Source: a virus. Taken from it: DNA of 52,778 bases. The notes beneath the pieces were generated by a model. That model worked only from the letters and a program-made list of their open reading frames with translations, searched no databases and was not told the origin of the DNA. The position numbers and the translations under genes were made by a program. Shown piece by piece: positions 13,354 to 52,562 of this stretch; position 1 is the first letter of the stretch, and every line of letters starts with the position of its first letter. The DNA lies in the IMG/VR virus record IMGVR_UViG_3300035158_000865, positions 1-52,778 of that record. The stretch is one strand, 5' to 3'.

Positions 13354-13355
13354 AT

Positions 13356-13784: not shown

Positions 13785-13785
13785 A

Positions 13786-22528: not shown

Positions 22529-23203
22529 ATGAAATTTTCAAAATTCTTAAATGAATTAGCAAATGAGAAGTATGGTAAGGGAATTACCTTTATAGATATT
22601 GATGAAACTATATTCCACACTTTCGCAAAAATCTATGTGATGAAAGATGGTAAAGTAGTAAGAAAGCTAAACAATCAAGAATTTAATACATACGAATTAC
22701 AGCCTGATGAATCTTTCGATTTTAGAGAATTTAGAAACGCTAAAATGTTTAAAAAAACATCAATACCTATACCTAAGACAGTTAAAAGAATAAAAAGAAT
22801 GTTACAAAATATTAAAAGAAGGGGTTCTAAGATTATATTTTTAACTGCTAGAAGTGATTTTGATAATAAGACTGAATTTCTAAGTACTTTCCAAAGACAT
22901 GGTATACCAATGGCTGATATATATGTAGAGAGAGCAGGTAATAGACAAGAAGGTACAGTAGCCAAGGCTAAGAAAAATATAGTCATGGAATATCTTAACA
23001 CCGGAGAATTTAGAAGAGTTAGGCTTATAGATGATGATATGACTAATTTAAAAAAGTTTCTTAGTATTGCTAAAAATATTACTCAACATATAATAGATAA
23101 AGTAAAAGATAGATATAATATAAAAGAAGGAGAAGTTGATAATATAATTGAATTTTTTGCTTTACATGTTAAAGAGAATGGAAAATTAGAGAAAATAAAC
23201 TAG
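22529..23203 (+). CDS. HAD-family phosphatase with capsid-targeting-like N-terminus
   Basis: 224 aa. It starts MKFSKFLNEL, the recurring motif. HAD motif I is FIDIDETIFH (Asp23, Asp25), motif II is FLTARSD, and motif III/IV is LIDDDM. This matches 5'-nucleotidase/polynucleotide 3'-phosphatase-type HAD enzymes. First gene of a rightward operon in which most members carry similar N-termini. If the first nine residues are a capsid-targeting tag, the enzyme would be injected with the DNA. The substrate cannot be read from sequence. Confidence 0.75.
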   Translation: MKFSKFLNELANEKYGKGITFIDIDETIFHTFAKIYVMKDGKVVRKLNNQEFNTYELQPDESFDFREFRNAKMFKKTSIPIPKTVKRIKRMLQNIKRRGSKIIFLTARSDFDNKTEFLSTFQRHGIPMADIYVERAGNRQEGTVAKAKKNIVMEYLNTGEFRRVRLIDDDMTNLKKFLSIAKNITQHIIDKVKDRYNIKEGEVDNIIEFFALHVKENGKLEKIN

Positions 23204-23699: not shown

Positions 23700-23882
23700 A
23701 TGATACTTAAAAAAGTAATAGAGCTTTTTAAAGAACCTCAGGAAAATGGTAAACACCTAGAAATTATTAAGAAAAGAAGTAGCAGGAATGAAAAAAAAAT
23801 TAATGAACTCTTTGAAAAGGTAAATGGTGGAAAAATTAATGAGGCTGAAAAATTTTCTTGCGGAACAAAGATCAGAGCCTAA
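23700..23882 (+). CDS. small basic helical protein
   Basis: 60 aa, mostly charged helix (KKRSSRNEKKINELFEK), with an AGGAG site ten bases before its start. It overlaps the next gene by 44 bases in another frame, so one of the two starts may be wrong; the next gene is better supported by its N-terminal motif. Function unknown. Confidence 0.4.
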   Translation: MILKKVIELFKEPQENGKHLEIIKKRSSRNEKKINELFEKVNGGKINEAEKFSCGTKIRA

Positions 23883-24393
23883 TAATCCCTTCTTAATATT
23901 TGAAGCCTTAAATTTGAATGAAGAAGTATCAGATAAAACATTCAAAGTACTAAAGAGGGCGGCTAAAAAAATAGGATTTAGGCTAAAAAGATCGGATAGT
24001 TTGATGGATTATATTAAAAGAGCAGGTAGTGGTATTGAAAATCTGCTTAGATATGCAACTTTGTATGCTTTTGCAAGAGATCCTAAACAGAAGAAGGAAT
24101 TTGTAGAGGATATGAGAAAATCCATGAAAACTATGAGTAAAAAGGAGGTTATCTCTTTCTTTATGCAATTAGATAGAGCAGCATTAGGTATTACTGCTAT
24201 ACCTAGACATGTTCTAATGAGTGTATTTGGATTAGAAATAGCTACTTATAATCAATGGATGGAAGATGTTGATTATATGAAGAAAGAGATTAAACATATA
24301 AGAAAAACTCTAAAAAGGATGGGAGATACCGAAGCTGAATTAAAAGCCTTAGATAAATTTGAGAAAAAAATATCAAAACTGGGAAAAGTATAA
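23839..24393 (+). CDS. helical protein with capsid-targeting-like N-terminus
   Basis: 184 aa if started at 23839, which gives MRLKNFLAEQ, the recurring motif with a Leu-x-Glu site. An in-frame ATG at 23824 would add five residues and hide it. A second Leu-x-Glu (LNLNEE) lies near residue 29. The remainder is basic and helical (VLKRAAKKIGFRLKRSD), as in phage internal or prohead-core proteins. The stop overlaps the next ATG. A virion-internal role is inferred. Confidence 0.55.
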   Translation: MRLKNFLAEQRSEPNNPFLIFEALNLNEEVSDKTFKVLKRAAKKIGFRLKRSDSLMDYIKRAGSGIENLLRYATLYAFARDPKQKKEFVEDMRKSMKTMSKKEVISFFMQLDRAALGITAIPRHVLMSVFGLEIATYNQWMEDVDYMKKEIKHIRKTLKRMGDTEAELKALDKFEKKISKLGKV

Positions 24394-24668: not shown

Positions 24669-24684
24669 TGGGGGATAAAAGTAT

Positions 24685-25017: not shown

Positions 25018-25168
25018 AGAAATTGTAAAGAAATATTTAGAAGAACAAGGTACTATAACAAAAGGGGTAGCAAAAAATTATACTGGTACTAAAACTACTA
25101 GTGCATCCAAAAAATTAAAGAAGAAAGAGAAGAAGAACAGAAAATCTCTTATGTATAGGAGAAAATAG
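25007..25168 (+). CDS. 53-aa highly basic peptide
   Basis: Starts inside the end of the previous gene with an AGGAG site seven bases upstream. It begins MKIKEIVKKYLEEQG, again with Leu-x-Glu, followed by a very basic tail (KKLKKKEKKNRKSLMYRRK). This is the composition of T4-type internal or DNA-condensing peptides. It ends two bases before the DHH gene. Confidence 0.6.
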   Translation: MKIKEIVKKYLEEQGTITKGVAKNYTGTKTTSASKKLKKKEKKNRKSLMYRRK

Positions 25169-29051: not shown

Positions 29052-30811
29052 ATCTTTTTATCCTTCAAAACTTCTATAAAATCCTTTAAAGGTTTATAAT
29101 TATCCGGCTTGTTTAATAACTCATTTGTATATTTTTCACCAGCTCTAATAGTATGTCTACCACATGATGTAATACCTTCTGCAATATTAGTATTGAAGTA
29201 TCTTGAATATGGTACTGCAAGAATACCAAACATAGCATTAAGAAGGATTTTTAAAGCCCATTGTAGATCAAATAATTGTACTGTCTTTTCTTTAGCATTC
29301 TCTAACTCTTCCCCTCTCAGGTCTTTTAGGGATTTTTTAGTTTTTATCATTTTATTTTTTACTTCTTTCCTTTTCTGAAAGATATTTCTTTGTATAGTTG
29401 ATAATATACCAGGATTCTTATTAGAAAACACAGAACCACAAGGAGATACACATAATAACCTTTTGGATAATGCTTGATTAAACTTGTCAAGTCTCTTACC
29501 TGTAAACTTTACAAGTCCAGTATCTTTTAACATATCAAATTTTTGGAAATTCCTACTTCTAGTAAAAGCTATTATTTTCTCCTCAGTAAAACCTAGTATT
29601 CTACCAAAGTACGTTTCTGGAGACATGTTTAGTGTTATAATAGCTGTGGGATATGATGAAGTTATATCAAGGTCAACAACCCAAGAATGCATACCTTTAT
29701 GCGGTTCTTTTACATATGCCGCTTCAAATGTTTCTTGTGTACCTCCTGAAAAGTGTGGAGCAACAAAATCATTTCTCCTATAATAAGTTAAAAGTGCCCC
29801 TTCTATTAGCTGTGTCATTGTATGGTAATATTTCATAGGAGCTTTAGTTAACAACGATAATGCTTGAACAAGTGATATAAAACCTAATTTTTCTTCAAGT
29901 TGATATACCCTTAAAGAATCAATTACATTGTAATCAACATACTTATTCCAGTCTTTTTCATAAAGATCATTGAGATTTTTATATTCTGAATAATCTAACT
30001 TACCTTTTTCCAACTCATGTTTTGCCACATAGTCAAGGCTATATGATTCAAGATTTGATGTTGAGTACCACTTATACAAATCCATGTAATCTAATATCAC
30101 AGTACCAGCAATATCAATGTTAATTTCATCATTTTTATAGGAATTCCAAACTCTAACAACATTTATAGGAGACATCTTTTTATATAAATCAGTATCCTTA
30201 CCAAACAAAACTTTACACCGTTCTATAAGGTAGGGTAAGTCAAATCCACTAATATTCCATCCTGATATAACATCACAAGGATGCTTATGTAAGAATCCGA
30301 AAAATCTAGTAAGTAGCTGTGTTTCAGATTTACAATGGACAAATAGTACATCTTTTCTATTACCACTATATTCTTTATCTCCAAATGTTATAGATTTTTT
30401 TCGTTTGTTATCATATATACTTATTAGAACTATGGGATACTCAGCACTTTTTATGGAGGGAAAACCATCACCATGGTAAATTTCAATATCAATGTTATAT
30501 ATTCTTAACTTTGGTACTTCTAACTCCTCATCAGGTATCTTATTATATCTCTCAGCTAAAAATTGTATTTCCGGTCTGACTCTATTTTCTAAAATAGAAT
30601 TGTTGTCCTTACAATAAGAATAATAATCAAAATAGGAAGAGAAAGTCTTTTTATCAGCACTTTCTCCATATATGGTTTTATACTTACCTTCTGAAGATCG
30701 TAAGAATACATAAGGTACCCATGGTATTTCAGTATATAAATTCTCACCATTTACTGTTTCCCATAAGTGTATAGTGCTTCTTTTAGTATTATAAAAAACG
30801 TTTCTGAACAT
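29048..30811 (-). CDS. 43: DNA polymerase B, N-terminal fragment (exonuclease, palm motifs A and B)
   Basis: 587 aa. 3'-5' exonuclease motifs: YNIDIEIY (Asp108, Glu110), NISGFDLPYL and YNVIDSLRV. Polymerase motif A is DLDITSSYPTAI, motif B is LKILLNAMFGILAVPYS (the usual N-x-x-Y-G is N-A-M-F-G). It stops before motif C. Joined to the next gene the total is about 880 aa, the length of T4 gp43 (898). It starts at the stop of the nuclease gene (TAATG). No intein or homing endonuclease lies between the fragments. Confidence 0.9.
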   Translation of the reverse strand: MFRNVFYNTKRSTIHLWETVNGENLYTEIPWVPYVFLRSSEGKYKTIYGESADKKTFSSYFDYYSYCKDNNSILENRVRPEIQFLAERYNKIPDEELEVPKLRIYNIDIEIYHGDGFPSIKSAEYPIVLISIYDNKRKKSITFGDKEYSGNRKDVLFVHCKSETQLLTRFFGFLHKHPCDVISGWNISGFDLPYLIERCKVLFGKDTDLYKKMSPINVVRVWNSYKNDEINIDIAGTVILDYMDLYKWYSTSNLESYSLDYVAKHELEKGKLDYSEYKNLNDLYEKDWNKYVDYNVIDSLRVYQLEEKLGFISLVQALSLLTKAPMKYYHTMTQLIEGALLTYYRRNDFVAPHFSGGTQETFEAAYVKEPHKGMHSWVVDLDITSSYPTAIITLNMSPETYFGRILGFTEEKIIAFTRSRNFQKFDMLKDTGLVKFTGKRLDKFNQALSKRLLCVSPCGSVFSNKNPGILSTIQRNIFQKRKEVKNKMIKTKKSLKDLRGEELENAKEKTVQLFDLQWALKILLNAMFGILAVPYSRYFNTNIAEGITSCGRHTIRAGEKYTNELLNKPDNYKPLKDFIEVLKDKKI

Positions 30812-34494: not shown

Positions 34495-34690
34495 TTTTCC
34501 ATCCTTGGTATGGACATCTATTTGTCAAAGGACAAGGATGTATACCCTTATTAGCTATTCTAATTTTCAATATACTCAAATTATTATCTTCTCTAAATTT
34601 GGTATTACCAGCGGTACAATAAGGAATATAGAAAGTTCCATGCTTTGTCCCTTTTAACTCAAACATTACATGCTTACATTCATTTTTCAT
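34481..34690 (-). CDS. small Cys-rich protein
   Basis: 69 aa with Cys5, His7, Cys25, Cys53, Cys59 and Cys69 (HPCPLTNRCPYQGW), a likely metal-binding mini-protein. It overlaps both the NADAR gene upstream and the DUF4338-like gene downstream by 11 and 14 bases, so it is tightly coupled. Function unknown. Confidence 0.5.
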   Translation of the reverse strand: MKNECKHVMFELKGTKHGTFYIPYCTAGNTKFREDNNLSILKIRIANKGIHPCPLTNRCPYQGWKNEKC

Positions 34691-35111
34691 TTCTTAACTC
34701 CTCTCTAATTTTCATCAATATCTTACCTAGAAGATTCTGACCTGTATCATCCCTTCCACAACCCCAAATATAATCATTAGGAGAATCTTCTATAAGTATC
34801 TTATCTCCTGATTTCAACAAAAATTTTTTCAATTTCTCATTTTGTGTAAATTTAGCTCTTACTGCCTTTTCCATGAAGATAGCTTTAACACTATTCCAAT
34901 CTTTCCTTGCTTTACAACTTCTGCCTAATTTCTTAGCTAGATATGGAGATTCAGCTATAGTTATAGAAACTTTATCAACTGTATTATATGCCTTCATTGC
35001 TTGGAAGTAGTGTTCGGTTGTGGGGTAGGTTATATTATCTATTTCTACTTCAGATGGATAGAAGTTTGAGAAAGGATGCTCCTTACCATAAAATTTTAAT
35101 TCATTACACAT
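34680..35111 (-). CDS. NADAR-domain N-glycosidase (YbiA-like)
   Basis: 143 aa, full-length NADAR domain: FSNFYPSEVEIDNITYPTTE, then HYFQAMKA, WNSVKAIFMEKAVRAKF and the C-terminal DYIWGCGRDDTGQNLLGKIL. NADAR enzymes cleave N-glycosidic bonds; family members can reverse ADP-ribosylation of guanine in DNA. In a phage this would counter DarT-type ADP-ribosylating defence or process NAD-derived metabolites. It follows the uracil-DNA glycosylase gene. Confidence 0.85.
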   Translation of the reverse strand: MCNELKFYGKEHPFSNFYPSEVEIDNITYPTTEHYFQAMKAYNTVDKVSITIAESPYLAKKLGRSCKARKDWNSVKAIFMEKAVRAKFTQNEKLKKFLLKSGDKILIEDSPNDYIWGCGRDDTGQNLLGKILMKIREELRNEK

Positions 35112-42331: not shown

Positions 42332-42985
42332 TTATGCGTTTCCTACTTCTTCTGAGAATTTAATAACCATTTTCATAAACTTCTTATATACTTTATGGTT
42401 AGGTCCAAAGACTCTATAATATCTCTTTATTGTATGTGATTCTCTATATATTAACATTTCTATAACAGCATCTTGTGCTAACGCCTGTATCTCATGCCTA
42501 TCTGATAAATAATCTTCTTCAGAATATTCACCCTCAATACTACCTGTTTCAGGTCCTTCCCAAGATTTACCTTTAGATGCTTCTCCTTGAGATAAATGTA
42601 TTAGTTCATGGATAAACAATTCCCACATATTAGAGAAAAATAAGTTTGTTTCTATATTATAGAACTTTCTTAATTTTTGTGGGTCTCTATATCTTCTGAA
42701 AAATTTACTTGCTCCTTTTTTTACATAAAATAGTATATTTTTAGATTTTCCAACTTCTGCACCTTTAAACCATTTTTGTACTTCACCTTTTACTCTTGTA
42801 CGTTTAAATGACATATTTTCAGACTTAAATATACCATTAAGTATTTTTATTAGAGTATCATCTGTTACATCCCAATCATGTTTTTGCATTATTCTAGCCA
42901 TTTCACCAAGATGATCCTCAATAATACCTTTAGCTTGTTTCAAGGTAGGTTTTGTTATTTCATTTAGATACTTATTTAATCTCAT
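42332..42985 (-). CDS. zincin metallopeptidase with capsid-targeting-like N-terminus
   Basis: 217 aa. It starts MRLNKYLNEI. The zinc motif HELIH (126-130) lies in WELFIHELIHLSQGE; HE at 164-165 (SDRHEIQALA) could supply the third ligand. The rest is helical and basic. Last gene of the leftward cluster whose members share this N-terminus. A peptidase delivered with the genome could cleave a host protein early. The target is unknown. Confidence 0.75.
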   Translation of the reverse strand: MRLNKYLNEITKPTLKQAKGIIEDHLGEMARIMQKHDWDVTDDTLIKILNGIFKSENMSFKRTRVKGEVQKWFKGAEVGKSKNILFYVKKGASKFFRRYRDPQKLRKFYNIETNLFFSNMWELFIHELIHLSQGEASKGKSWEGPETGSIEGEYSEEDYLSDRHEIQALAQDAVIEMLIYRESHTIKRYYRVFGPNHKVYKKFMKMVIKFSEEVGNA

Positions 42986-43533
42986 TTTATTCTTCTTGAA
43001 AACTGTACCTTATGTTTTTTATTAAACAAAGAAATACTTTTCACTATTATTTTTGGTAACTTAACTCTCTCTTCTATTTCTGAAAGTAAACCTTTTGATA
43101 ATACATCTTTTTCTAATGTTATCAAACTTACATGAGGTCTCATTCCACCAGGAAAAGTCCTTATAGAATTAGGAATTTCACTATATATATCACTGAATAT
43201 ATCTTTATACTTCTGATTTGATTTATATTCTATAGCTATAAAATCTTTACCAGTTATGGAACCATATAACTTTACCAACTCTTTAGGTTTGAACCTTACT
43301 TGGATTTTTATATCTTGGATTATTCTATTAAGTTTGTCTTTTTCTATAGGTGATATTATTTGTGCAACACTTATATGTGGATTACCTGTAAGAACTTGAT
43401 GTTTTATGTCCGCATTGGTTAGATATTTACTTATTTCATTTTGAACACCTCTAAGCGTGCTTCCATCAACATCAAATGCTATTAAGGTTTTTTCCATTTT
43501 TTTAGCTTCTTTTATGTACTTGTAAAGCTTCAT
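42982..43533 (-). CDS. 2H phosphoesterase (2'-5' RNA ligase-like)
   Basis: 183 aa. N-terminus MKLYKYIKEA. The two signature motifs are PHISVA (His53, Ser55) and PHVSLI (His134, Ser136). The family includes 2'-5' ligases and cyclic phosphodiesterases acting on RNA ends, cyclic oligoadenylates or ADP-ribose phosphates. In T4-like phages such enzymes can cleave 2'-5' or cyclic signalling nucleotides. It overlaps its neighbours by four bases on each side. Confidence 0.85.
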   Translation of the reverse strand: MKLYKYIKEAKKMEKTLIAFDVDGSTLRGVQNEISKYLTNADIKHQVLTGNPHISVAQIISPIEKDKLNRIIQDIKIQVRFKPKELVKLYGSITGKDFIAIEYKSNQKYKDIFSDIYSEIPNSIRTFPGGMRPHVSLITLEKDVLSKGLLSEIEERVKLPKIIVKSISLFNKKHKVQFSRRIK

Positions 43534-43802
43534 TTTTTCTTCTTTTTACCTCTATAACCAGTCCAAAGTAAGTGTTTCCTTGCAAAGTATACTAAACCTT
43601 TAGGATGCTTCTTAGGTCTATCTATCTTCTTTAAATCTTTCGTATTCACAGTCATATACTTCTTATTCTTACCTTTCCAAGTAGCCACAACATTTTTATC
43701 ATTAGAAAGAGCAACAATAAATATTCCTTTCATACCATTAAATTCTACCCAATTACCTGCTTTGAAACCTCTACCAAGAGAGAAAAGTTCTCTCATCTTC
43801 AT
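43530..43802 (-). CDS. small basic protein in the tagged-gene cluster
   Basis: 90 aa, strongly basic with a Lys-rich end. The first residues (MKMRELFSLGRGF) do not have the Leu-x-Glu site of the neighbours. A beta core (NWVEFNGMKGIFIVALSNDK, then VATWKGKNKKYM) suggests a small SH3- or KOW-like fold. It overlaps the 2H phosphoesterase start. A nucleic-acid or ribosome-binding role is speculative. Confidence 0.5.
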   Translation of the reverse strand: MKMRELFSLGRGFKAGNWVEFNGMKGIFIVALSNDKNVVATWKGKNKKYMTVNTKDLKKIDRPKKHPKGLVYFARKHLLWTGYRGKKKKK

Positions 43803-43810
43803 AATATCAC

Positions 43811-44686
43811 CTATTTATACCATAAAAGTTTTTTGATTTCTGATAAATTATACATCAAAGAATTAACTAAATAATACTTCTTACATTTAAACATTATTTC
43901 ATTATCTGATTTTATTGCTTTAGATAAATTATTATTTTTATAACTTCCCACTATTTCTATAAATTTTCCTTCTCTTTCATTTCTTAATTCTTCTAACTTA
44001 TCAATCCACCAATCATCAAAACTCACGCTTGGAACCCATTCAAGATCATTATAAACCATATCCTCAGCTTCATCTCTTAATTCTTTTTTATTATTAAATT
44101 CCCAGTTTTCATTCTCCTCAAGTTCCCTCATTATATCATCTATAGCATCTTCTAATGTCTCATATTCATTACCTTGTACAAGGTAATGACCATCACCTGA
44201 TGCTTCACCATATTTACGTTCATATTCCTCATCATAATCTTCTGGATAAAATTCATCATCTGGAAAACTTGCAGCTTCTAATTCATCATATAGGTCTTTT
44301 ATATAAGGTGACCATATAAAATCAAATCTGCCTATAGGAAAAAACAAATAAACATCACCATAACCTGATGCCGTGGAACGCTTACCTGTAGCAAAAATAC
44401 CCTCCGATCTTACGTTCCAACCAAATTCTCTTCTGAATAATTCATCAAATTCATCATGTAATTTAATGGGTATATCAACTGGTTTTCTATCTTTTCTAGG
44501 TTTGATTTGATAAAGTCCATCCATAGGATGTGAACCCTTAACTCTTCTAACACCCCTATAAACAAAATCTTTTACTCTTTTTGTTTCTCGTAGAAATGGG
44601 TCACAATCTTTTCTAAGAATATCAGTTAATTGCTCTATATTACTACCATAATCTTTAATCTCTTTTAAATATTTACCTAATCTCAT
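43811..44686 (-). CDS. ADP-ribosyltransferase-like protein with capsid-targeting-like N-terminus
   Basis: 291 aa beginning MRLGKYLKEI. FVYRGVRRVK (Arg44) and GIFATGKRSTASGYG (97-110), followed by VYLFFPIGRFDFIWSP, recall the R-S-E order of ADP-ribosyltransferases (Arg, then the S/T-S strand). A third catalytic Glu is not clear. An acidic insert occupies residues 130-200. In T4 the internal protein Alt is a packaged, injected ADP-ribosyltransferase that modifies host RNA polymerase; this protein would fit that role. The assignment is tentative. Confidence 0.5.
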   Translation of the reverse strand: MRLGKYLKEIKDYGSNIEQLTDILRKDCDPFLRETKRVKDFVYRGVRRVKGSHPMDGLYQIKPRKDRKPVDIPIKLHDEFDELFRREFGWNVRSEGIFATGKRSTASGYGDVYLFFPIGRFDFIWSPYIKDLYDELEAASFPDDEFYPEDYDEEYERKYGEASGDGHYLVQGNEYETLEDAIDDIMRELEENENWEFNNKKELRDEAEDMVYNDLEWVPSVSFDDWWIDKLEELRNEREGKFIEIVGSYKNNNLSKAIKSDNEIMFKCKKYYLVNSLMYNLSEIKKLLWYK

Positions 44687-44994
44687 TTCTTTGCTATCTC
44701 GAAATATATAGTATTTGTTGGTCTCTCTACATCAGTCTTGAAAGTATAATCTTCCATATTATCTACCATATCTACAAGGAGGTTAGTGAAATTAAACAAA
44801 TCATCGTTATAGATAAATGTAATACCTTTTTTTCTGTTAGGAGAAGCTTCAACAGTAACTTCATCTTCATCATAAAAACCAACTTGTGATTTTAGTACAA
44901 ATGAAGTTTTTTTAGGTCTCTTTATTAACTTCTCTACCATATTCTTTTCTTTACTAGTTATTTTAGCCTCATTTAGAAAATTTCTAAATTTCAT
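44683..44994 (-). CDS. small protein with capsid-targeting-like N-terminus
   Basis: 103 aa beginning MKFRNFLNEA. The remainder is a small mixed domain (VLKSQVGFYDEDEVTVEAS, then ITFIYNDDLFNFTNLLVD). It overlaps the ADP-ribosyltransferase-like gene by four bases and follows the kinase gene closely. Function unknown; packaging inferred from the N-terminus. Confidence 0.55.
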   Translation of the reverse strand: MKFRNFLNEAKITSKEKNMVEKLIKRPKKTSFVLKSQVGFYDEDEVTVEASPNRKKGITFIYNDDLFNFTNLLVDMVDNMEDYTFKTDVERPTNTIYFEIAKK

Positions 44995-45005
44995 CTTAAC
45001 TCTCC

Positions 45006-45695
45006 TTAACTTCTATACCATATAGAAACAGTTCTCTTAATTTCATCCACAGAATGCAAATGGGGTGATAAGTACTTCCAACCATTTTCTCTCATAGTTT
45101 CTATATAGTGTTTACCTATAGTATTCTTTACATCTGAATTATAGAATGATGATAATTTTTTGAATGATTTCAATATCATATCATTATTTAATTCACCTTC
45201 ATCATTCTTCACTGTTACAAATACTGGAAATTTGGTTTTATAGAATGACTTCATTCTACTTACCTCATTATAAAACTCAATTATTACTTTCTCTGGAACT
45301 TTTCTATTCCTTTGTCTAACCCTCTCTATAGCTGTCTCTAAAGATGTCTCTACAAAAACCATAGCCATATCATATCCAAAAGATTCCAACAAACCATATC
45401 TCTTCAATACTGAACTTGGATTAGCTGATGTTCCATCAACAGCTAGAGGTAACATAGAATTTATATATAGAACTAATTGATTCTTAGTAAGTGTTTTAGC
45501 TCTATCAAGAAAACTTATATCATTATCAAAATGCTCAATAAATTTATCAGTGTTAACTACTCTTGGTTCTACCTGTCCAGACTTAATTCTATTCAAAGTA
45601 TAACTTTTACCAGAACCAGGATGTCCTGCCATAAAAGCTGTTTTGAATATACCAGCATCATTAATACCTTCGTTTATAAACTTCTCTAATTTCAT
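45006..45695 (-). CDS. P-loop kinase (zeta-toxin-like) with capsid-targeting-like N-terminus
   Basis: 229 aa beginning MKLEKFINEG. Walker A is GHPGSGKS (24-31), then VNTDKF and VDGTSANPSSVLKRYG, and a basic VRQRNRK lid, as in zeta-toxin or polynucleotide-kinase-type enzymes. The kinase could phosphorylate UDP-sugars or nucleic-acid ends. The tag would place it in the head. It overlaps the ParB-like gene by four bases. Confidence 0.75.
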   Translation of the reverse strand: MKLEKFINEGINDAGIFKTAFMAGHPGSGKSYTLNRIKSGQVEPRVVNTDKFIEHFDNDISFLDRAKTLTKNQLVLYINSMLPLAVDGTSANPSSVLKRYGLLESFGYDMAMVFVETSLETAIERVRQRNRKVPEKVIIEFYNEVSRMKSFYKTKFPVFVTVKNDEGELNNDMILKSFKKLSSFYNSDVKNTIGKHYIETMRENGWKYLSPHLHSVDEIKRTVSIWYRS

Positions 45696-46162
45696 TTAGA
45701 TATATCCACCATTAGAGCTTTTGGAATTACTCCTTTTATAAAAGCAACATCTAATCTAGTATTACCAGCCATTATCCACATATCTCTACTTCCTTTTAGT
45801 ATAATAGGGTAAGGAATTTTCTCATTATTCTCTATTCCTCTTTCTATCCTTTTAACATCTCTAGGTCTTTTATAATTAGATACTAAATCTTCCAATTCTT
45901 CTATAGAAGAAGTTCTACTTCTATTATTTATCTTTCTATCTAGAGAATCGGTAATAGTAACTACTCTAGCACCCTTCAGAGAATTTTTGAAATGCTTATA
46001 GTTTTCAAATATAGGAAATCTCGCTCCTATTATATCTACCCTTCTCAACCATTTAGTATTTTCCTTCTTTTCATATTCTCTAAAATCTTCTTTCATAGTT
46101 GATTCTGAAGGAAAAGACCAACTATTATATATATCCTCATTTAGAAATTTATTTAATTTCAT
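45692..46162 (-). CDS. ParB/sulfiredoxin-like protein with capsid-targeting-like N-terminus
   Basis: 156 aa beginning MKLNKFLNED. The C-terminal MAGNTRLDVAFIKGV motif, followed by ALMVD, resembles the GNHR/GNTR site of ParB- and sulfiredoxin-type nucleotide-binding folds, some of which are nucleases or NTPases. The middle is basic and helical. It starts at the stop of the isochorismatase-like gene. The enzymatic reading is moderate. Confidence 0.6.
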   Translation of the reverse strand: MKLNKFLNEDIYNSWSFPSESTMKEDFREYEKKENTKWLRRVDIIGARFPIFENYKHFKNSLKGARVVTITDSLDRKINNRSRTSSIEELEDLVSNYKRPRDVKRIERGIENNEKIPYPIILKGSRDMWIMAGNTRLDVAFIKGVIPKALMVDISK

Positions 46163-46746
46163 TAGTATACAAACTTCTTTACTAGCTTATAATTAATATT
46201 AAAAGTACTCATAAGTATCTCAATCTCTTTAAGACATTCGTTTCTACCACCACCGACTAGGTAAGAACCTTTCCATTTTCTTAACTTGTCAACTCTTATT
46301 GTTGGTGGTAAGAATATTGGATCATTTCTGAACTCATTTCTCCACATATCAGGAAATTTCTCTTCCCATTCTTCTTCTGGTATATCTCTAGAATCATAAA
46401 CTCTTTTTTCTAACATGAACCTAAGAGCTCTTTTTATATCTCTTTCATCAGCACCCATATCCATCCAGGCTCGAAAGAAACCATATCCTTTATCTACCCA
46501 AGTGAAATCTGGAAACCTCTCAGGCTCAAGACCATTATCTAGGTAAAATTCTAATATTTCCTCTTTACTATCTGATCCTACAGTATCAGGACCATTGAAG
46601 AAACAAAGTATCTTTTTGTTTTCGTTGAGAAATTCTGTAAATAAACCTAAGTTAAACGAAATATATTTTCTATATAATGGTTGAACATCAACCACTATAA
46701 CATTTTTCTTTGTTTCTTCATTTATTAAATACTTCTTTAGTTTCAT
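46162..46746 (-). CDS. isochorismatase-like protein with capsid-targeting-like N-terminus
   Basis: 194 aa beginning MKLKKYLINEE. VIVVDVQPLYRKY and a late GGGRNECLKEIEILMSTFNI segment recall cysteine hydrolases of the isochorismatase/nicotinamidase type (Asp near the start, Cys near the end). The middle diverges and has a Trp-rich region. NAD or pterin-like substrates could be cleaved. It overlaps the MscS-like gene by 29 bases. Assignment tentative. Confidence 0.5.
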   Translation of the reverse strand: MKLKKYLINEETKKNVIVVDVQPLYRKYISFNLGLFTEFLNENKKILCFFNGPDTVGSDSKEEILEFYLDNGLEPERFPDFTWVDKGYGFFRAWMDMGADERDIKRALRFMLEKRVYDSRDIPEEEWEEKFPDMWRNEFRNDPIFLPPTIRVDKLRKWKGSYLVGGGRNECLKEIEILMSTFNINYKLVKKFVY

Positions 46747-47077
46747 CTACCCCACCATATAGGTCTTTATATGTATCTCTTAATTTCCAATCATAATATT
46801 GCCATCTCTTCATAGGTATTATTATTTCACTACCATCTGTTGTTTTAATAAATATCCATCTTATATCGTAATTTATTATGATTCCCTCTTCACTTTTTAT
46901 TTTTACCTTAACTCCGATGCTGAGTCTCTTATTCATTAAAAATAATACATAAGATGTAATGCTTTCTAATATATTTTTCAATAACAAGAATATAACAAAT
47001 GCTATAGCAAGTTTAAAAAGCATTACCCATAGAATTGGCTGCATACCATTTATTATTTGTAATATTTGAGTTTCCAT
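46718..47077 (-). CDS. small MscS-like membrane protein
   Basis: 119 aa. Two hydrophobic segments (about 14-36 and 42-55, MLFKLAIAFVIFLLLKNILE and then YVLFLM) are followed by a beta domain (SIGVKVKIKSEEGIIINYDI, then TTDGSEIIIPM) that resembles the pore-lining and beta part of MscS channels. It could be a mini-channel or act in entry or lysis. It lies between the holin and the tagged cluster. Confidence 0.55.
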   Translation of the reverse strand: METQILQIINGMQPILWVMLFKLAIAFVIFLLLKNILESITSYVLFLMNKRLSIGVKVKIKSEEGIIINYDIRWIFIKTTDGSEIIIPMKRWQYYDWKLRDTYKDLYGGVDETKEVFNK

Positions 47078-47083
47078 ATATTA

Positions 47084-47707
47084 TTATAGATTCTTTAGAG
47101 CCTTATTTAGAGTTTTACCTAACATATTACCTTTTTCTTTTAGTTCTGGATGCCTCTTATCTACTGTTCGTGCTGCTGCATAACCAAGGTATGCTGTTGA
47201 AAATGTACCAAACAACCAACCACCTATCCATTCTACCATACCAATTATTGATGTTACTAATGCTGCTTGGACCCCACCAACAGACATAGCCACCAAGCAT
47301 AATGGGGCAAAGAATACATAAGCAGCACAAATAGTGAAAAGTCTCCTAAGTATCATTGGTCTTGTTCTTTTTACAAATTGATCATCTGATTTGTAGGCTT
47401 CGATTTCAAGATCCCTAACACCTTCCATATCATCGTAATCAAGTTTCTTCTCTTTATAGTCTAGTTCTCTCTCTTCTAGAGCTATTTCAGCCATTCTCTC
47501 TTTATGTTCATACATTAATTCTTTTAACTTAGTCATTTGTTCCGGACTTACTTTACCCATAGATATATCATTCATTATATCATCTCTAAGCTTAGCAGCA
47601 TCCTTCACAACTTCTGGTGTTTCTTTTCCGAATAAACTAGCTACTGATGACCATATTTCAGGTATCTTAGGTATTAAAGATAATCCTGCTGCAACTAAAG
47701 GTGCCAT
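47084..47707 (-). CDS. holin, GTA/3TM superfamily
   Basis: 207 aa. An N-terminal segment (APLVAAGLSLIPKIPEIW), a charged central helix, a FVKRTRPMILRRLF junction and then two to three membrane segments (ICAAYVFFAPLCLVA, AALVTSIIGMVEWIGGWLFG) match the 3TM holin family. It permeabilises the inner membrane so that the endolysin can reach the wall. Directly follows the endolysin gene. Confidence 0.8.
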   Translation of the reverse strand: MAPLVAAGLSLIPKIPEIWSSVASLFGKETPEVVKDAAKLRDDIMNDISMGKVSPEQMTKLKELMYEHKERMAEIALEERELDYKEKKLDYDDMEGVRDLEIEAYKSDDQFVKRTRPMILRRLFTICAAYVFFAPLCLVAMSVGGVQAALVTSIIGMVEWIGGWLFGTFSTAYLGYAAARTVDKRHPELKEKGNMLGKTLNKALKNL

Positions 47708-47726
47708 ATTTCAATCCTCCTTTTAT

Positions 47727-48311
47727 CTATCTACTAAAATTCACTCTTTTAAACCAACCTCTAACAAATTTTTCTTGATCAGGTGATTTAGTCATGAGTT
47801 GTATATAATGATAACCTTGTAAAGTATTCATTATTTTTACAAGTAAATCTGAGTTATCTGTTTCTAAATATATTTTTATAGCTCTTAGTGTCTTAGGACC
47901 AAATATTCCATCTTCTGCAATATCAGCATATAAGGTACCATTTCTATTTAGTTTATTTAAAGTTATTTGTAAAAACTCCACAGCTCTAGCTACACCCATA
48001 TTAACTGATATATCAAATAGTTCTAAAGCTATAAAATAATCAGTTACATCATCTCCCCAAAATCTATTCCAGTAATGATCTTTATAAAAACTCTTAACAG
48101 ATTCTTCTAATACATCACTACTTTTTAATAATTGATAGAAGTTTTCATCATTTTTGAGTTCATCAATTATTAACCAACCATTCCAATTAGGATGATGTTT
48201 TCTAGAAATACCTCTATAAGTTTCACCACCCCTATCAACTGGATCATTTGAGTAATATCCTTCATGATTCATAACTAAATTGAATACATTATCAAAAATA
48301 TTATCTGGCAT
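47727..48311 (-). CDS. endolysin, GH108 (ZliS-like) muramidase
   Basis: 194 aa. The signature NHEGYYSNDPVDRGGETYRG (16-35, catalytic Glu17) with GIS is typical of GH108. The C-terminal part (EDGIFGPKTLRAIK) belongs to the peptidoglycan-binding region. The lack of a signal peptide agrees with holin-dependent export. It is the first gene of the lysis operon and follows a long leader with a possible late promoter. Confidence 0.9.
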   Translation of the reverse strand: MPDNIFDNVFNLVMNHEGYYSNDPVDRGGETYRGISRKHHPNWNGWLIIDELKNDENFYQLLKSSDVLEESVKSFYKDHYWNRFWGDDVTDYFIALELFDISVNMGVARAVEFLQITLNKLNRNGTLYADIAEDGIFGPKTLRAIKIYLETDNSDLLVKIMNTLQGYHYIQLMTKSPDQEKFVRGWFKRVNFSR

Positions 48312-48474: not shown

Positions 48475-48482
48475 TATTTATA
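48475..48482 (-). promoter_or_regulatory. possible late promoter for the lysis operon (TATAAATA)
   Basis: An exact TATAAATA on the minus strand lies about 165 bases upstream of the endolysin ATG and just after the terminator of the preceding gene. Chance occurrence is not excluded. Confidence 0.35.
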
Positions 48483-48510
48483 TAAAAGTTATTATAAAAT
48501 AGAAGCACAA

Positions 48511-48542
48511 AAAACCTCCTAATTTATTGGTTAGGAGGTTTT
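48511..48542. terminator. strong bidirectional terminator
   Basis: A perfect 12-bp stem (48511-48522 with 48531-48542) and 8-base loop have T-runs on both strands. It would end the minus-strand 90-aa gene and the plus-strand small RNA. Confidence 0.9.
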
Positions 48543-48549
48543 TATATTT

Positions 48550-48837: not shown

Positions 48838-49041
48838 CTATACAAGTTTTGTTCCGATTGTATTTCTTATAAGTTTCTTAAACTCTTCCCAATCTTCATC
48901 CTTTACGATTTTCTCCATCTTTTTAATTTCTGCTCTTGATGCTTTTTTGTAGAATTCTACCATTTCTTGAAAACCAATATTATGAGGATAAGCAGATTCA
49001 TTTTTACTCAGGTGTTCTAAGATATGTTTTTCAAATTTCAT
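48838..49041 (-). CDS. small protein, weak capsid-targeting-like N-terminus
   Basis: 67 aa beginning MKFEKHILEHLSKNE, which has an Ile-x-Glu at residues 7-9 as in the tagged proteins. The rest is a charged helix (FYKKASRAEIKKMEKIVK). It lies between the tRNA array and the 90-aa gene. Function unknown. Confidence 0.5.
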   Translation of the reverse strand: MKFEKHILEHLSKNESAYPHNIGFQEMVEFYKKASRAEIKKMEKIVKDEDWEEFKKLIRNTIGTKLV

Positions 49042-49053
49042 ATTGTCTCCTTA

Positions 49054-49128
49054 TGGAACCCCCGCCGGGATTCGAACCCGGATACCTCAGCTTAGAAGGC
49101 TGATGCTAGTCCATTTAGCTACGAGGGC
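49054..49128 (-). tRNA. tRNA-Arg(UCU)
   Basis: 75 bases with encoded CCA. The cloverleaf pairs well, including a GCTA/TAGC D-stem and TTCGAAT T-loop. The anticodon TCT reads AGA, the major Arg codon of AT-rich phage genes. Confidence 0.95.
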
Positions 49129-49132
49129 TTTA

Positions 49133-49211
49133 TGGAACCCCTGACAGGATTCGAACCTGCATACTCACCGGTTCGTAGCCGGTGGCTCTGATTCCATTGA
49201 GCTACAGGGGT
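49133..49211 (-). tRNA. tRNA-Arg(ACG)
   Basis: 79 bases with encoded CCA. Canonical arms. The anticodon ACG (inosine-type) reads CGN codons. Only four bases separate it from the preceding tRNA-Arg. Confidence 0.9.
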
Positions 49212-49225
49212 ATAATTTATTTTTA

Positions 49226-49300
49226 TGGAGCGGGAGGCAGGAATTGAACACTGCACCGTATAGTTGGAAACTATACATTCTACCTTTAAAATACTCCCGC
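49226..49300 (-). tRNA. tRNA-Gly(UCC), copy with bulged T-stem
   Basis: 75 bases with CCA, anticodon TCC. The T-stem GCAGTG/CCTGC needs a bulged T to pair, and the D-stem (TTTT/GAAT) is weak. It may be decaying: a better tRNA-Gly(UCC) lies at 52144-52218. Confidence 0.7.
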
Positions 49301-49304
49301 TAAA

Positions 49305-49379
49305 TGGAGCGGGTGGTGGGAATCGGACCCACAACGACCACGTTGGCAACGTGGCATTCTACCTTTGAATTACACCCGC
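49305..49379 (-). tRNA. tRNA-Gly(GCC)
   Basis: 75 bases with CCA, anticodon GCC. The arms pair well. The T-loop reads TCCGATT, with C at the usual pseudouridine-55 position. Confidence 0.85.
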
Positions 49380-49381
49380 TA

Positions 49382-49744
49382 TTATATCACTAGTTTATTT
49401 ATCTCATCATCAGACCATGTAAACATAAAATCATTGTTTTGATTTTCTATATCGTATATTACAAGTTTCAGAAAATACATTGGGCCATTAGACCATATTT
49501 CACATTGTTCTTGTTCTCTGGCTACTCTTCCATCTTTTAGTTGATATTCGTATAGTGGAAAGCCACCTTCATCAATTATTGTATCAATGAAATCAAATTC
49601 ATTTCTATACAATTCTTCAAATTGCTCTAAATTTATAATTCCATCAGGAAAAGTTTTTCTTTTTTCAACTTTAACTTTCTTTGTATTCTTTTTTAGAAAT
49701 TCTAGAGCTTCCTGTGGTAAGCCCATATACTGGTTCATTCTCAT
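49382..49744 (-). CDS. small protein within the tRNA array
   Basis: 120 aa. Acidic, mixed alpha/beta, with a Lys-rich KKNTKKVKVEKRK stretch near the start and an end MFTWSDDEINKL. An AAGGAC site precedes the first ATG. The stop is two bases from the 5' end of tRNA-Gly(GCC). Not recognised. Confidence 0.6.
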   Translation of the reverse strand: MRMNQYMGLPQEALEFLKKNTKKVKVEKRKTFPDGIINLEQFEELYRNEFDFIDTIIDEGGFPLYEYQLKDGRVAREQEQCEIWSNGPMYFLKLVIYDIENQNNDFMFTWSDDEINKLVI

Positions 49745-49767
49745 ATTCTGTCCTTTCTCTTACAGTC

Positions 49768-50085
49768 TTATAGTCTTATATTTTTCTTCAAAATCAAATC
49801 TTTATCTGATAGTCTATTCAAGATTATAAATGGAAAGAAAATGAATGTAAACATTTTTCTTCTATCTTTTTTCACTCTATTTTTAAAGAATCTGTATTCT
49901 TTTAGTGAAAACATTTCTGAGGCTTCTAAGGTTCCTACTTCTACTCTTCTGTAGTAAAACAAAGGACTCTCTTTATATTCATCGAAAACGAGATGAACCA
50001 TTGCTTTACCCCATATAGAACGGTAATAAAGAGTTATGAGTTTTAATTGTATCCACTCTTTTATTTTATGTAGTTTATTTTTCAT
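49768..50085 (-). CDS. small basic membrane-associated protein
   Basis: 105 aa, basic with one hydrophobic stretch (FTFIFFPFIILNRL, about 79-92). It starts only ten bases after the 3' end of tRNA-Val and has no Shine-Dalgarno, so translation may be weak or coupled to tRNA processing. Function unknown. Confidence 0.5.
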   Translation of the reverse strand: MKNKLHKIKEWIQLKLITLYYRSIWGKAMVHLVFDEYKESPLFYYRRVEVGTLEASEMFSLKEYRFFKNRVKKDRRKMFTFIFFPFIILNRLSDKDLILKKNIRL

Positions 50086-50094
50086 TATTTTGTT

Positions 50095-50168
50095 TGGTAG
50101 GGGGTAACGGAATCGAACCGATTTCTTCTGCGTGTAAGGCAGATGTTGTACCAGTCAACTAACCCCCT
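50095..50168 (-). tRNA. tRNA-Val(UAC)
   Basis: 74 bases with CCA, anticodon TAC. The cloverleaf is good apart from one T-stem mismatch. Confidence 0.85.
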
Positions 50169-50174
50169 ATTATC

Positions 50175-50248
50175 TGGTCCTCCTGAGTGGAATCGAACCA
50201 CTATCACGGCCTTATAAGGACCACGCTCTACCGTTGAGCTACAGGAGG
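50175..50248 (-). tRNA. tRNA-Ile(UAU)
   Basis: 74 bases with CCA, all arms paired. The anticodon TAT reads AUA directly. Most bacteria instead use a CAU tRNA with lysidine, so this is an uncommon choice that suits an AUA-rich genome. Confidence 0.85.
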
Positions 50249-50253
50249 ATTTT

Positions 50254-50327
50254 TGGCTGGCCGGAGAGGAGTCGAACCTCTATACCATGGTTCAAAGCCA
50301 TGTGCCCTTCCATTGAGCGACCGGCCA
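50254..50327 (-). tRNA. tRNA-Gln(UUG)
   Basis: 74 bases with CCA, canonical arms. The anticodon TTG reads CAA. The next gene upstream stops at the adjoining base. Confidence 0.9.
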
Positions 50328-50744
50328 TTATTCATACTCACAATTATGTCTTAGTTTCCAATTATCTTTAAGTATTTTTCTTTGTTTCTCATTTAGAAAT
50401 TCCATGGCAAATTCGTCAGCTTCTTCTTCATCATGATATCCACATGCATGACCTATTTCATGGTATTTAGCTATTTTCCATTCATCTTCATTTAAATCAC
50501 AATCCACATTCATTACTACCATAGAGTCTTCTAAATTATCATCTTTATCATATAATGTAACTGTGAATGCCCTTTCATCTATATAATTTGTTACACCCAT
50601 TTTCTTAAATTCTTCTTGTACTTCAAAAAACGTTCCTTTATTCAAGTAAAGTAATTTTATTTCTTCTTCCCCCACAATGACTCCTTTCATCTTAACAAAA
50701 TTTTTCAGTATCTTTTTTCGTATTCTCTCTATTCCTTTTATCAT
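50328..50744 (-). CDS. ImmA/IrrE-like metallopeptidase
   Basis: 138 aa. KYHEIGHACGYHDEEEADEF gives the zinc motif HEIGH (95-99) and a downstream Glu108, as in ImmA/IrrE peptidases. These cleave phage or mobile-element repressors and stress regulators. An AGGAG site supports the start. The stop codon ends one base before tRNA-Gln. The target is unknown. Confidence 0.7.
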   Translation of the reverse strand: MIKGIERIRKKILKNFVKMKGVIVGEEEIKLLYLNKGTFFEVQEEFKKMGVTNYIDERAFTVTLYDKDDNLEDSMVVMNVDCDLNEDEWKIAKYHEIGHACGYHDEEEADEFAMEFLNEKQRKILKDNWKLRHNCEYE

Positions 50745-50826
50745 AAAATGCTCCTAGTGTAAACACAAGGAACAATTTTTAATTTGGTATAATTATTTAT
50801 CTTTTAGGAATAGTTTAATTTTATTA

Positions 50827-50912
50827 TGGAGGAGGGTAGACGAATCGAACGCCCAGGTTTCACCCCGCCCACGGGTTCAAACCGTGTTGCCGACCATTCA
50901 GCGGTACCCTCC
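50827..50912 (-). tRNA. tRNA-Ser(UGA)
   Basis: 86 bases with CCA and a long variable arm, as expected for Ser. Anticodon TGA. The discriminator base is T, where bacterial Ser tRNAs usually have G. Confidence 0.85.
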
Positions 50913-50917
50913 TTATT

Positions 50918-50991
50918 TGGTGGAGATGGAGGGAGTCGAACCCTCATTACTGACGTGCAAGGCCAGTGTTCTCCCATTAAACTACATCCCC
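50918..50991 (-). tRNA. tRNA-Ala(UGC)
   Basis: 74 bases with CCA, all arms paired, anticodon TGC. The third acceptor pair is G-U, the usual Ala identity element region. Confidence 0.9.
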
Positions 50992-50999
50992 TTTATTTT

Positions 51000-51075
51000 T
51001 GGGGCGACCGGAGGGAATCGAACCCTCGTTGTATGGGCCACAACCATACTCTCTGACCATTGAGTTACAGTCGCC
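51000..51075 (-). tRNA. tRNA-His(GUG)
   Basis: 76 bases with CCA. The extra 5' G (position -1) opposite C73, the mark of tRNA-His, is present. Anticodon GTG. Confidence 0.9.
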
Positions 51076-51080
51076 ATAAA

Positions 51081-51156
51081 TGGTGGGAGCCGCTGGAATC
51101 GAACCAGCATCTCCTGGGCTTCAACCAGACGCTATGACCACGTAAGCGAGACTCCC
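51081..51156 (-). tRNA. tRNA-Phe(GAA)
   Basis: 76 bases with CCA, anticodon GAA, canonical T-arm. Confidence 0.9.
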
Positions 51157-51164
51157 TTTGTTTA

Positions 51165-51380
51165 TTATAGATAACCTAAATCACGAAGAGTTTGTAAACC
51201 CATTTTTATTTCTTCTTCAGTAGGTTCAAAACCTTCTAATACATTTAAGCCTTCATCAGTTATCTCAAAAGCTTTACCTTCCATTATACCTTTCTCTACA
51301 AACTCATTCAAATCTTTAATGGTATAAAGAAGTATTTTACTTTCTCTAGTTATTTCATTTGTAGTTAAATCATCAAACAT
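51165..51380 (-). CDS. small acidic protein within the tRNA array
   Basis: 71 aa from ATG at 51380, preceded by an AAGGAGAAA site; a longer reading would run back into a tRNA. Contains a SKILLYTIKDLNEFVEKGIM helix and an EPTEEEIKMGLQTLRDLGYL end. No family recognised. Confidence 0.65.
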   Translation of the reverse strand: MFDDLTTNEITRESKILLYTIKDLNEFVEKGIMEGKAFEITDEGLNVLEGFEPTEEEIKMGLQTLRDLGYL

Positions 51381-51395
51381 GTTATTTCTCCTTTT

Positions 51396-51472
51396 TGGTA
51401 GGGGTGGAGGGAGTCGAACCCTCAAACTTGGAATTTTAAGTCCCAATGCTTTTCCAATTAGCATACACCCCT
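51396..51472 (-). tRNA. tRNA-Leu(UAA), class I variable loop
   Basis: 77 bases with CCA, all arms paired, anticodon TAA (reads UUA). The variable loop is only five bases, while bacterial Leu tRNAs have a long arm. It is either an unusual Leu tRNA or one charged with another amino acid. Confidence 0.8.
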
Positions 51473-51598
51473 TTATATAATCATATAAACCTCACCGCAT
51501 TTTTCACATACTACTATGTCAAATTCCTTATTATATGCTTTCTTTATTATATTACCACCACAATAACAAGTACCTGTTATTTCTTTTTCTTTTTTCAT
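51473..51598 (-). CDS. 41-aa zinc-ribbon protein between tRNAs
   Basis: An ORF with a strong AAAGGAG site. It encodes TGTCYCGGN and VVCEKCGEVY, two Cys pairs as in a minimal zinc ribbon. The stop codon directly abuts the 5' end of tRNA-Leu(UAA). Confidence 0.75.
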   Translation of the reverse strand: MKKEKEITGTCYCGGNIIKKAYNKEFDIVVCEKCGEVYMII

Positions 51599-51609
51599 AG
51601 GTTCTCCTT

Positions 51610-51694
51610 TGGTGCTAGAGGAGGGAGTCGAACCCTCATGTCTTTTGACACATAGACCTCAACCATGCGTGTATGCCAGTTCCACCACTCTAGC
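51610..51694 (-). tRNA. tRNA-Leu(GAG)
   Basis: 85 bases with CCA, anticodon GAG, with the normal long variable arm (TGTC/GACA stem). Confidence 0.9.
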
Positions 51695-51791
51695 TCTTAT
51701 CATCTTTGCCTTTTCCTGCTTCAAACAATTTACCTAGTATTATACCTGCTATTATTGAGACTGTAAACCAAAGTAATAAAAAATATCCCAT
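51690..51791 (-). CDS. 33-aa single-pass membrane peptide
   Basis: Starts at 51791 after an AAAGGAG site. It encodes a membrane segment (YFLLLWFTVSIIAGIILGKL) and a charged end (GKGKDDKS). Its TAG stop lies inside the first bases of tRNA-Leu(GAG). Confidence 0.7.
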   Translation of the reverse strand: MGYFLLLWFTVSIIAGIILGKLFEAGKGKDDKS

Positions 51792-51807
51792 AATGTCTCC
51801 TTTCTTT

Positions 51808-51879
51808 TGGTAGTGAGGGAGAGAATTGAACTCTCTTGTACCTGCATATGAGACAGAACACTTGACCACAAGCCTCACT
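51808..51879 (-). tRNA. tRNA-Met(CAU) with a shortened D-arm
   Basis: 72 bases with CCA, anticodon CAT. Only 15 bases lie between acceptor and anticodon stems (normally about 19), leaving a minimal D-arm (CTTG/CAAG). It may be elongator Met or, if lysidine-modified, Ile(AUA). Confidence 0.75.
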
Positions 51880-51889
51880 TCTTTTTGTA

Positions 51890-51964
51890 TGGATGGCGAG
51901 GTGGGGGTCGAACCCACGACAATCTGGTTAACAGCCAGACGCTCTACCACTGAGCTACTCACCA
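51890..51964 (-). tRNA. tRNA-Asn(GUU)
   Basis: 75 bases with CCA, anticodon GTT, canonical arms. Confidence 0.9.
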
Positions 51965-51969
51965 TCAAG

Positions 51970-52047
51970 TGGTAGCGGGGGAGGGAATCGAACCCTCATC
52001 ATTCTGGGATATGAACCCAGCGTGTTGACCTCCTACACTACCCCGCA
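51970..52047 (-). tRNA. initiator-type tRNA-fMet(CAU)
   Basis: 78 bases with CCA, anticodon CAT. It has an unpaired 1:72 position (T-T) and three consecutive G-C pairs at the bottom of the anticodon stem (CTGGG/CCCAG), the two marks of bacterial initiator tRNA. Confidence 0.85.
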
Positions 52048-52053
52048 ACATTT

Positions 52054-52131
52054 TGGTGTGGGTGAGAGGAGTCGAACCTCCAAAACCATGGGTCTAAGCC
52101 ATGTGCATATACCAAATTCTGCTACACCCAC
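52054..52131 (-). tRNA. tRNA-Leu(UAG), class I variable loop
   Basis: 78 bases with CCA, anticodon TAG (reads CUA). The variable loop is five bases instead of a long arm, like the UAA tRNA. The D-loop (AATTTGGTA) is Leu-like. Confidence 0.8.
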
Positions 52132-52143
52132 AAATATTTTTTC

Positions 52144-52218
52144 TGGAGCGGGTGGAGGGAATCGAACCCTCATAACCAGGTTGGAAGCCTGACACACTTG
52201 CCATTATGTTACACCCGC
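52144..52218 (-). tRNA. tRNA-Gly(UCC), well-formed copy
   Basis: 75 bases with CCA, anticodon TCC, good T-stem GAGGG/CCCTC. Complements the bulged copy at 49226-49300. Confidence 0.9.
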
Positions 52219-52227
52219 TTAACTTTC

Positions 52228-52464
52228 TTATCTTCTTTCTACTTCAAAATCGTAAAACTTTACTACCTGGTAATTTGATAATCTTACTTGGTATACTTTT
52301 CTATATGTTTGGTTTTTTATATAATCATATACATTAACTATCATTCCAATTTCACCTGTAATTAGAACTTTTACAAAATCACCCTCTTTTATTTCTTCTT
52401 CTTTTACATTTTTACAATTTGAACAACTATCACAACCAACTGTTAATTTTTCTTCTTCTAACAT
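52228..52464 (-). CDS. small SH3-like protein between tRNAs
   Basis: 78 aa. It has CDSCSNCKN near the N-terminus and a beta domain (EGDFVKVLITGEIGMIVNVY). An AAGGAAGGG site precedes the ATG. It ends ten bases before tRNA-Gly. Not recognised. Confidence 0.6.
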   Translation of the reverse strand: MLEEEKLTVGCDSCSNCKNVKEEEIKEGDFVKVLITGEIGMIVNVYDYIKNQTYRKVYQVRLSNYQVVKFYDFEVERR

Positions 52465-52488
52465 GTTATTACCCTTCCTTTCTTTTTA

Positions 52489-52562
52489 TGGCGCCCCGTC
52501 CCGGTACTGACCCGAGAACTGGAGAGCGACAATCTCCTATGATACCATTTCACCAACGGGGC
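52489..52562 (-). tRNA. tRNA-Asp(GUC) with an atypical T-loop
   Basis: 74 bases with CCA, anticodon GTC, discriminator G as expected for Asp. The T-loop reads GTCAGTA instead of TTCRANY, losing the conserved T54 and A58. Confidence 0.8.

Follow-up and report, generated by a model that had tools for sequence, protein, structure and literature searches.

A run of tagged phage genes that is probably an enlarged, enzyme-loaded form of the T-even internal-protein system

Introduction

The internal proteins (IPs) of T-even phages are a diverse set with only a capsid targeting sequence (CTS) in common (PMC3012670). Ip1-3, which are injected, inhibit distinct GmrSD nucleases (PMC12373910), and ipIII is required on ECOR17 (PMC9391042). 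The first ten residues of T4 IPIII suffice to bring foreign proteins into the head, and processing resides there too; the T4 prohead protease, gp21, cleaves after L/I-x-E (PMC9026906, PMC10229621). Here we analyze a run of eight genes at 42332-46746 of a 52.8-kb virus record (IMGVR_UViG_3300035158_000865, 52,778 nt, hereafter the window), seven of which open with a common N-terminal tag. This cassette is probably the internal-protein system of T-even phages in an enlarged form, loaded with enzymes.

An earlier reading of the DNA (the first-pass annotation) had proposed an injected-enzyme cassette and had noted no known description of such a set with a common tag. The T-even IPs are already such a set (PMC12373910, PMC3012670). 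The principle is known from T4; the papers searched appear to hold no description of multi-enzyme cassettes or of phage-specific tag dialects.

Results

A common tag opens seven of eight genes

All eight open reading frames (ORFs) of 42332-46746 were confirmed, on the minus strand:

46162..46746, minus strand: g8, 194 aa, tag MKLKKYLINE; contains VIVVDVQ...GGGRNECL
45692..46162, minus strand: g7, 156 aa, tag MKLNKFLNE; putative ParB/Srx-like family, GNTR[LM]D motif
45006..45695, minus strand: g6, 229 aa, tag MKLEKFINE; zeta-type/PSTK-like P-loop kinase
44683..44994, minus strand: g5, 103 aa, tag MKFRNFLNE; downstream of the zeta gene, as in related loci L004 and L020
43811..44686, minus strand: g4, 291 aa, tag MRLGKYLKE; ADP-ribosyltransferase (ART)-like family
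43530..43802, minus strand: g3, 90 aa, basic, untagged (start MKMRELFSLG); TATAAATA immediately upstream
42982..43533, minus strand: g2, 183 aa, tag MKLYKYIKE followed by MEKTLIAFDV; 2H phosphoesterase motifs HISV and HVSL
42332..42985, minus strand: g1, 217 aa, tag MRLNKYLNE; zincin-like motif HELIH...E

The run had been described as eight overlapping genes. Five of the seven junctions do overlap, by 1 or 4 nt; at the other two the genes stand 8 and 11 nt apart. The run also extends upstream. The tag, with consensus M[KR][LF]x[KN][YF][LI]xE, opens every gene except g3, and scoring bears out the seven-of-eight count given before. When each tag was scored with a position matrix built from the seven by leave-one-out, it ranked within the top 2 to 21 of 16,963 nine-residue windows of the proteome. 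Joint scoring placed 10 window genes at 8.9 or above, with the next best at 1.3. Three of these ten lie beyond the interval:

22529..23203, plus strand: tag MKFSKFLNE; HAD acid phosphatase family (Acid_phosphat_B, 5.7e-8)
23839..24393, plus strand: tag MRLKNFLAE; very weak ADPrib_exo_Tox signal (E 0.055)
48838..49041, minus strand: weaker tag MKFEKHILE, 67 aa; score 8.9

The motif [LI]xE falls within the first 14 residues of all ten tagged window proteins and of 10 of the 72 others, a difference that is partly built in through the E of the consensus.

A common N-terminus could be a by-product of translation-start context or of recent duplication and carry no targeting role, and the tight packing of these genes, with their short overlaps, fits such an origin. 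However, the tags are written with different synonymous codons (TTA/CTT/CTA, AAA/AAG, TAT/TAC, GAA/GAG), which indicates selection on the peptide rather than a copied DNA segment. The tag also sits on unrelated protein bodies and is missing from most other genes of the window, and across families it is genome-specific and not conserved at the nucleotide level. We consider this origin highly improbable. The second methionine of g2, directly after its tag (MKLYKYIKEAKK-MEKTLIAFDV), could mark where the product of an untagged ancestral gene began.

A second N-terminal pattern (MSKKLLERIDLFLIREEG, MNIEEKMNKYL) was seen on small proteins at 13114-14010 (minus strand) and 24393-25168 (plus strand) of the window and at 54-350 of locus L030.

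The tag resembles the T4 capsid targeting sequence and comes in phage dialects

The window was assigned to the T4 superfamily through PolB, UvsW and UvsY, the UvsW homolog being identified by reading its sequence and the UvsY homolog by Pfam. Its PolB is ~31% identical to PolB of Pelagibacter phage Mosig and of cyanophages, which places it at a distance from cultured members.

At ~10 residues with an L/I-x-E end, the window tag is a close match to the T4 CTS. T4 ipI starts MKTFKEFTS, and relatives have intermediate tags: MKTFKQYLFE and MITFKQFLSE in loci L012 and L016, and MKTFAELQE in Melnitz. As in T4-type CTS proteins, the leader ends in a predicted prohead-protease site, L/I-x-E. T4-like tag strings such as MKTFKEF were not found printed in the papers searched. 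One related contig, L007, holds genes for gp21 and gp23 as well as a cassette whose tag reads MSRLQKYLxE, and the N-terminus of its capsid protein contains ILDE.

Tags of unrelated proteins in one genome are more alike than tags of related proteins in different genomes. Tag similarity was 15.9 for same-genome, different-family pairs vs 7.9 for different-genome, same-family pairs. The observed difference of 8.0 compares with a permutation mean of 0 (sd 1.2). Single-linkage families had fused g4, g6 and g7 through fusion proteins, which makes the test conservative. The tag is a protein-level signal with genome-specific dialects across unrelated families, and it is very probably a CTS.

Another intracellular signal could look similar. 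A tag for membrane, replication-compartment or chaperone targeting would leave the enzymes acting in the producing cell. It would suit a short, basic-hydrophobic leader, and residues 3-27 of the g4 model are helical. The tag nevertheless has a gp21 cleavage motif at its end and is similar to the leaders of T4 IPs, and the g7 domain was also seen in one protein alongside a MuF-like head domain and an ART domain. This makes such a signal unlikely, and we retain the CTS as the preferred reading.

Other dialects were noted in passing. The MKYIKLFEEFLNE type stands on many adjacent genes in L055, L062 and L008-L011, including a SET-domain protein (L008:7003-7452). In L063 and L053, MKKSELRQLIREEI opens up to five successive genes.

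Tagged cargo is exchanged between relatives

Gene content at this position was compared among relatives, as the first-pass annotation had suggested, and tagged cargo is indeed swapped at a uvsW-flanked locus. In many T4-like phages, relatives of the ART-like, zeta-kinase and ParB-like genes lie in comparable tagged cassettes, and the tag dialect differs from phage to phage. The uvsW-adjacent loci of L004 and L020 keep the zeta, g5 and ART-like genes and exchange the remaining cargo for Nudix proteins, a C39/papain-type peptidase and extra ART-like genes. Homologs of g5 were found in L020 (E 2e-8) and L004 (5e-5), and of g6 in L004, L020, L012, Atu_ph07, HTVC008M and Melnitz.

Among the loci fetched, 55 proteins belong to the g4 family; almost all have a tag, and many stand in tandem. 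Atu_ph07 holds an array of them (tag MRWxQLTE), and several copies occur in LR756508, SCTP-2, L012, L016 and L020. Fusions join the families: a g4-type domain is fused to a zeta kinase in Atu_ph07, and in L020 a g4-type ART-like domain is fused to a g7 homolog that is 59% identical to g7. By counting coding sequences (CDSs), the 11-gene tagged array of Atu_ph07 corresponds to CDS 53-63; in its virions, 29 of CDS 31-76 were detected (PMC6102473). The cultured Alishewanella phage Slicko01 has eight genes with the tag MKIDxLYESLLEE, including an ART-PolyVal protein (Pfam, E 2e-11) and a g7 homolog. The RM378 homolog lacks the tag.

Homologs of g7 are ORFs in 52 loci. In six loci the g7 domain lies inside proteins of 1058-2789 aa, one of which (1241 aa) combines it with an ADPrib_exo_Tox domain and with a MuF-like domain that scores below the Pfam cut-off. 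In a test of g7 neighbors, 16 of 40 loci fell in the top tenth, a result that is supportive only, being confounded by related loci with a common dialect. A g7-like domain lies inside the giant proteins L091:6474-10199 and L049:4527-10934; one also carries MuF-like and ART exoenzyme domains, the other a VTC domain.

Cargo turnover bears on what packaged proteins would do. They might enter the prohead core and be cleaved, yet help to assemble the head or condense the DNA instead of being injected as effectors. The protease motif is shared with T4 core proteins, and a small ORF adjoining gp21 in the L007 contig starts similarly (MTRIDEKINKHLNE). Yet the cargo is enzyme-like and changes between close relatives, the catalytic-type residues of 42 ART-like proteins are invariant at 17% mean identity, and T4 IPs and Alt are ejected and dispensable for assembly (PMC9958956, PMC9026906). 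A head-assembly role is accordingly improbable, and delivery as injected effectors is the reading that we carry forward. The L007 contig also has, between gp21 and a scaffold-like gene, a gene with the second type of N-terminus (cf. MSKKLLERIDLFLIREEG); proteins of this type are possibly core proteins.

Enzyme assignments differ in strength

The first-pass annotation had named six enzyme or protein classes, and these fared unequally. The kinase is the firmest: g6 matches Pfam AAA_33 (3.4e-9; 37.6 bits, cut-off 27) and Zeta_toxin (1.4e-8; 34.9 bits, cut-off 22.3), has a Walker A motif and matches a PSTK profile at 4e-5. Its assignment as a zeta/PSTK-type P-loop kinase is solid.

ART-like g4 belongs to a conserved family in which R44, R93 and E263 are invariant across the 42 aligned proteins. 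Structure prediction, proposed earlier as a check, gave a confident AF2 model for g4 (pLDDT 90). No Pfam family scored above cut-off and no PDB fold matched at E<=0.001; significant fold matches were solely to large-phage proteins (e.g. Atu_ph07, uncultured marine phages). We therefore call g4 ART-like and not a proven ART. Its top PDB matches were OspC/CopC effectors, which are NAD users; these were insignificant (TM ~0.2), and no claim is drawn from them. For g7, the motif GNTR[LIM]D is conserved across a wide family, and no Pfam or PDB match was found. Profile and fold comparisons thus support g4 and g7 as conserved families without significant matches to known ones.

Motifs suggest two further classes. 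Protein g2 has two H-x-[ST]-hydrophobic motifs, HISV at 53 and HVSL at 134, at the spacing of the 2H family (shuffle frequency 0.005), and a weak 2_5_RNA_ligase2 match (E 0.2, Pfam model below cut-off); these make it a candidate 2H phosphoesterase. Protein g1 has a single HExxH (HELIH...E; shuffle frequency 0.016) and is zincin-like by motif only. No homolog of g1 was found by family searches, close-relative scans or tblastn against cultured phages. The same tblastn comparison gave no matches for g2 and g8, and the close-relative scan was empty for g8 too.

The proposed isochorismatase identity of g8 is unconfirmed. The protein is 19-23% identical to tagged isochorismatase-like proteins of L008/L010/L011; no family model or fold matched it, and its AF2 model reached a pLDDT of 50.7.

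The run continues into lysis genes

Upstream, the run extends through three genes, with junctions from a 29 nt overlap to a 19 nt gap (46718..48311, minus strand):

46718-47077, minus strand: MscS-like protein
47084-47707, minus strand: holin-like protein with three transmembrane segments
47727-48311, minus strand: GH108 endolysin

A terminator (48510-48543) and TATAAATA (48475-48482) lie immediately upstream of the endolysin gene. This arrangement makes late expression plausible.

Elsewhere in the window, 17 tRNA genes (49054-52562, minus strand) adjoin the lysis genes; T4 ipI likewise adjoins a tRNA cluster. DNA polymerase B is encoded at 28173-30811 (minus strand) by two overlapping genes, whose products have 587 aa (exonuclease and first polymerase part) and 292 aa (YIDTDS motif). 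A ClpP-type protease is encoded by the phage at 27461-28009 (minus strand). An untagged NADAR domain protein, an ADP-ribose-metabolism enzyme, is encoded at 34680-35111 (minus strand; E 1e-39), with a homolog in L020.

Discussion

Our results suggest the following pathway. The tagged proteins would be made late in infection. Their first 9-10 residues would act as a CTS through which each protein docks in the scaffold core of the prohead. Cleavage by the prohead protease after the L/I-x-E of the tag would then set the enzyme free among the packaged DNA. The enzymes would leave the head with the genome and enter the next host. There, the ART-like, zeta/PSTK-type kinase, 2H phosphoesterase, zincin-like and ParB-like proteins may act on host targets or nucleotide signals, modifying them before phage gene expression begins; the likeliest outcome would be blunted defense or a takeover of host machinery. 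The tag would be the constant part, fitted to the scaffold and protease of each phage, and the enzyme bodies would be exchanged.

The match to the T4 CTS, the gp21 L/I-x-E rule, the dialects and the cargo turnover at the uvsW locus lend good support to the earlier proposal of an injected cassette; of its enzyme calls only some are established. We strongly infer packaging and injection, and there is good reason to regard the cassette proteins as injected effectors. From the T4 IPs and the fold classes we infer that they could disable host defense in the first minutes, and we lean towards anti-defense as their main role.

Several points weigh against this interpretation. No prohead protease of the gp21 type was found in the window, and the TATAAATA late-promoter motifs in the window are not enriched over chance. 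Several enzyme assignments stand at the level of motifs, and the PDB fold search with the ART-like model gave nothing significant. The main text on Atu_ph07 names no detected proteins of the cluster, and 17 of its 46 CDSs went undetected.

On balance, we favor a broader view in which, across the T4 superfamily, phage-specific tag dialects reveal a whole injected arsenal. ART-like, kinase, 2H, Nudix, SET, C39 protease and ParB-like functions would each be carried by a small protein of its own, and together these proteins would form a modular counterpart to the polyvalent proteins. If this is true, a 10-residue rule would predict injected effectors among many uncharacterized phage genes, including enzyme families without a known homolog. 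The long-standing question of the cargo that large T4-like phages inject, and of the defenses that it meets, would become directly testable by proteomics and tag-fusion assays.

Four described systems invite comparison. The Dar proteins of P1 are anti-restriction proteins likewise delivered in the head through an N-terminal packaging signal, but their N-termini have no common consensus (PMC9024508) and the proteins are unrelated to those of the window. Polyvalent and MuF-fused effectors (Iyer et al.; PMC9503650) overlap in repertoire (ART, 2H, Nudix) and are predicted to be packaged and injected; the g7 domain occurs in such giant proteins. They are, however, one large polypeptide or a MuF fusion, whereas the window encodes separate small proteins, each tagged. 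In the passages considered, the argument draws on genome context and on fusions to MuF and makes no use of a common N-terminal tag (PMC9503650). T4 Alt, an injected ADP-ribosyltransferase, is a head-packaged enzyme cut by gp21 and g4 is ART-like, but no match between the g4 family and known ARTs was detected in sequence or fold, and relatives have many paralogs per phage. The T-even IPI-III likewise have a leader of ~10 residues on unrelated, swappable proteins, with an L/I-x-E site, in the T4 superfamily. The characterized IPs are few and are inhibitors, whereas the window has seven such proteins in one run, mostly enzyme-like, under another tag dialect.
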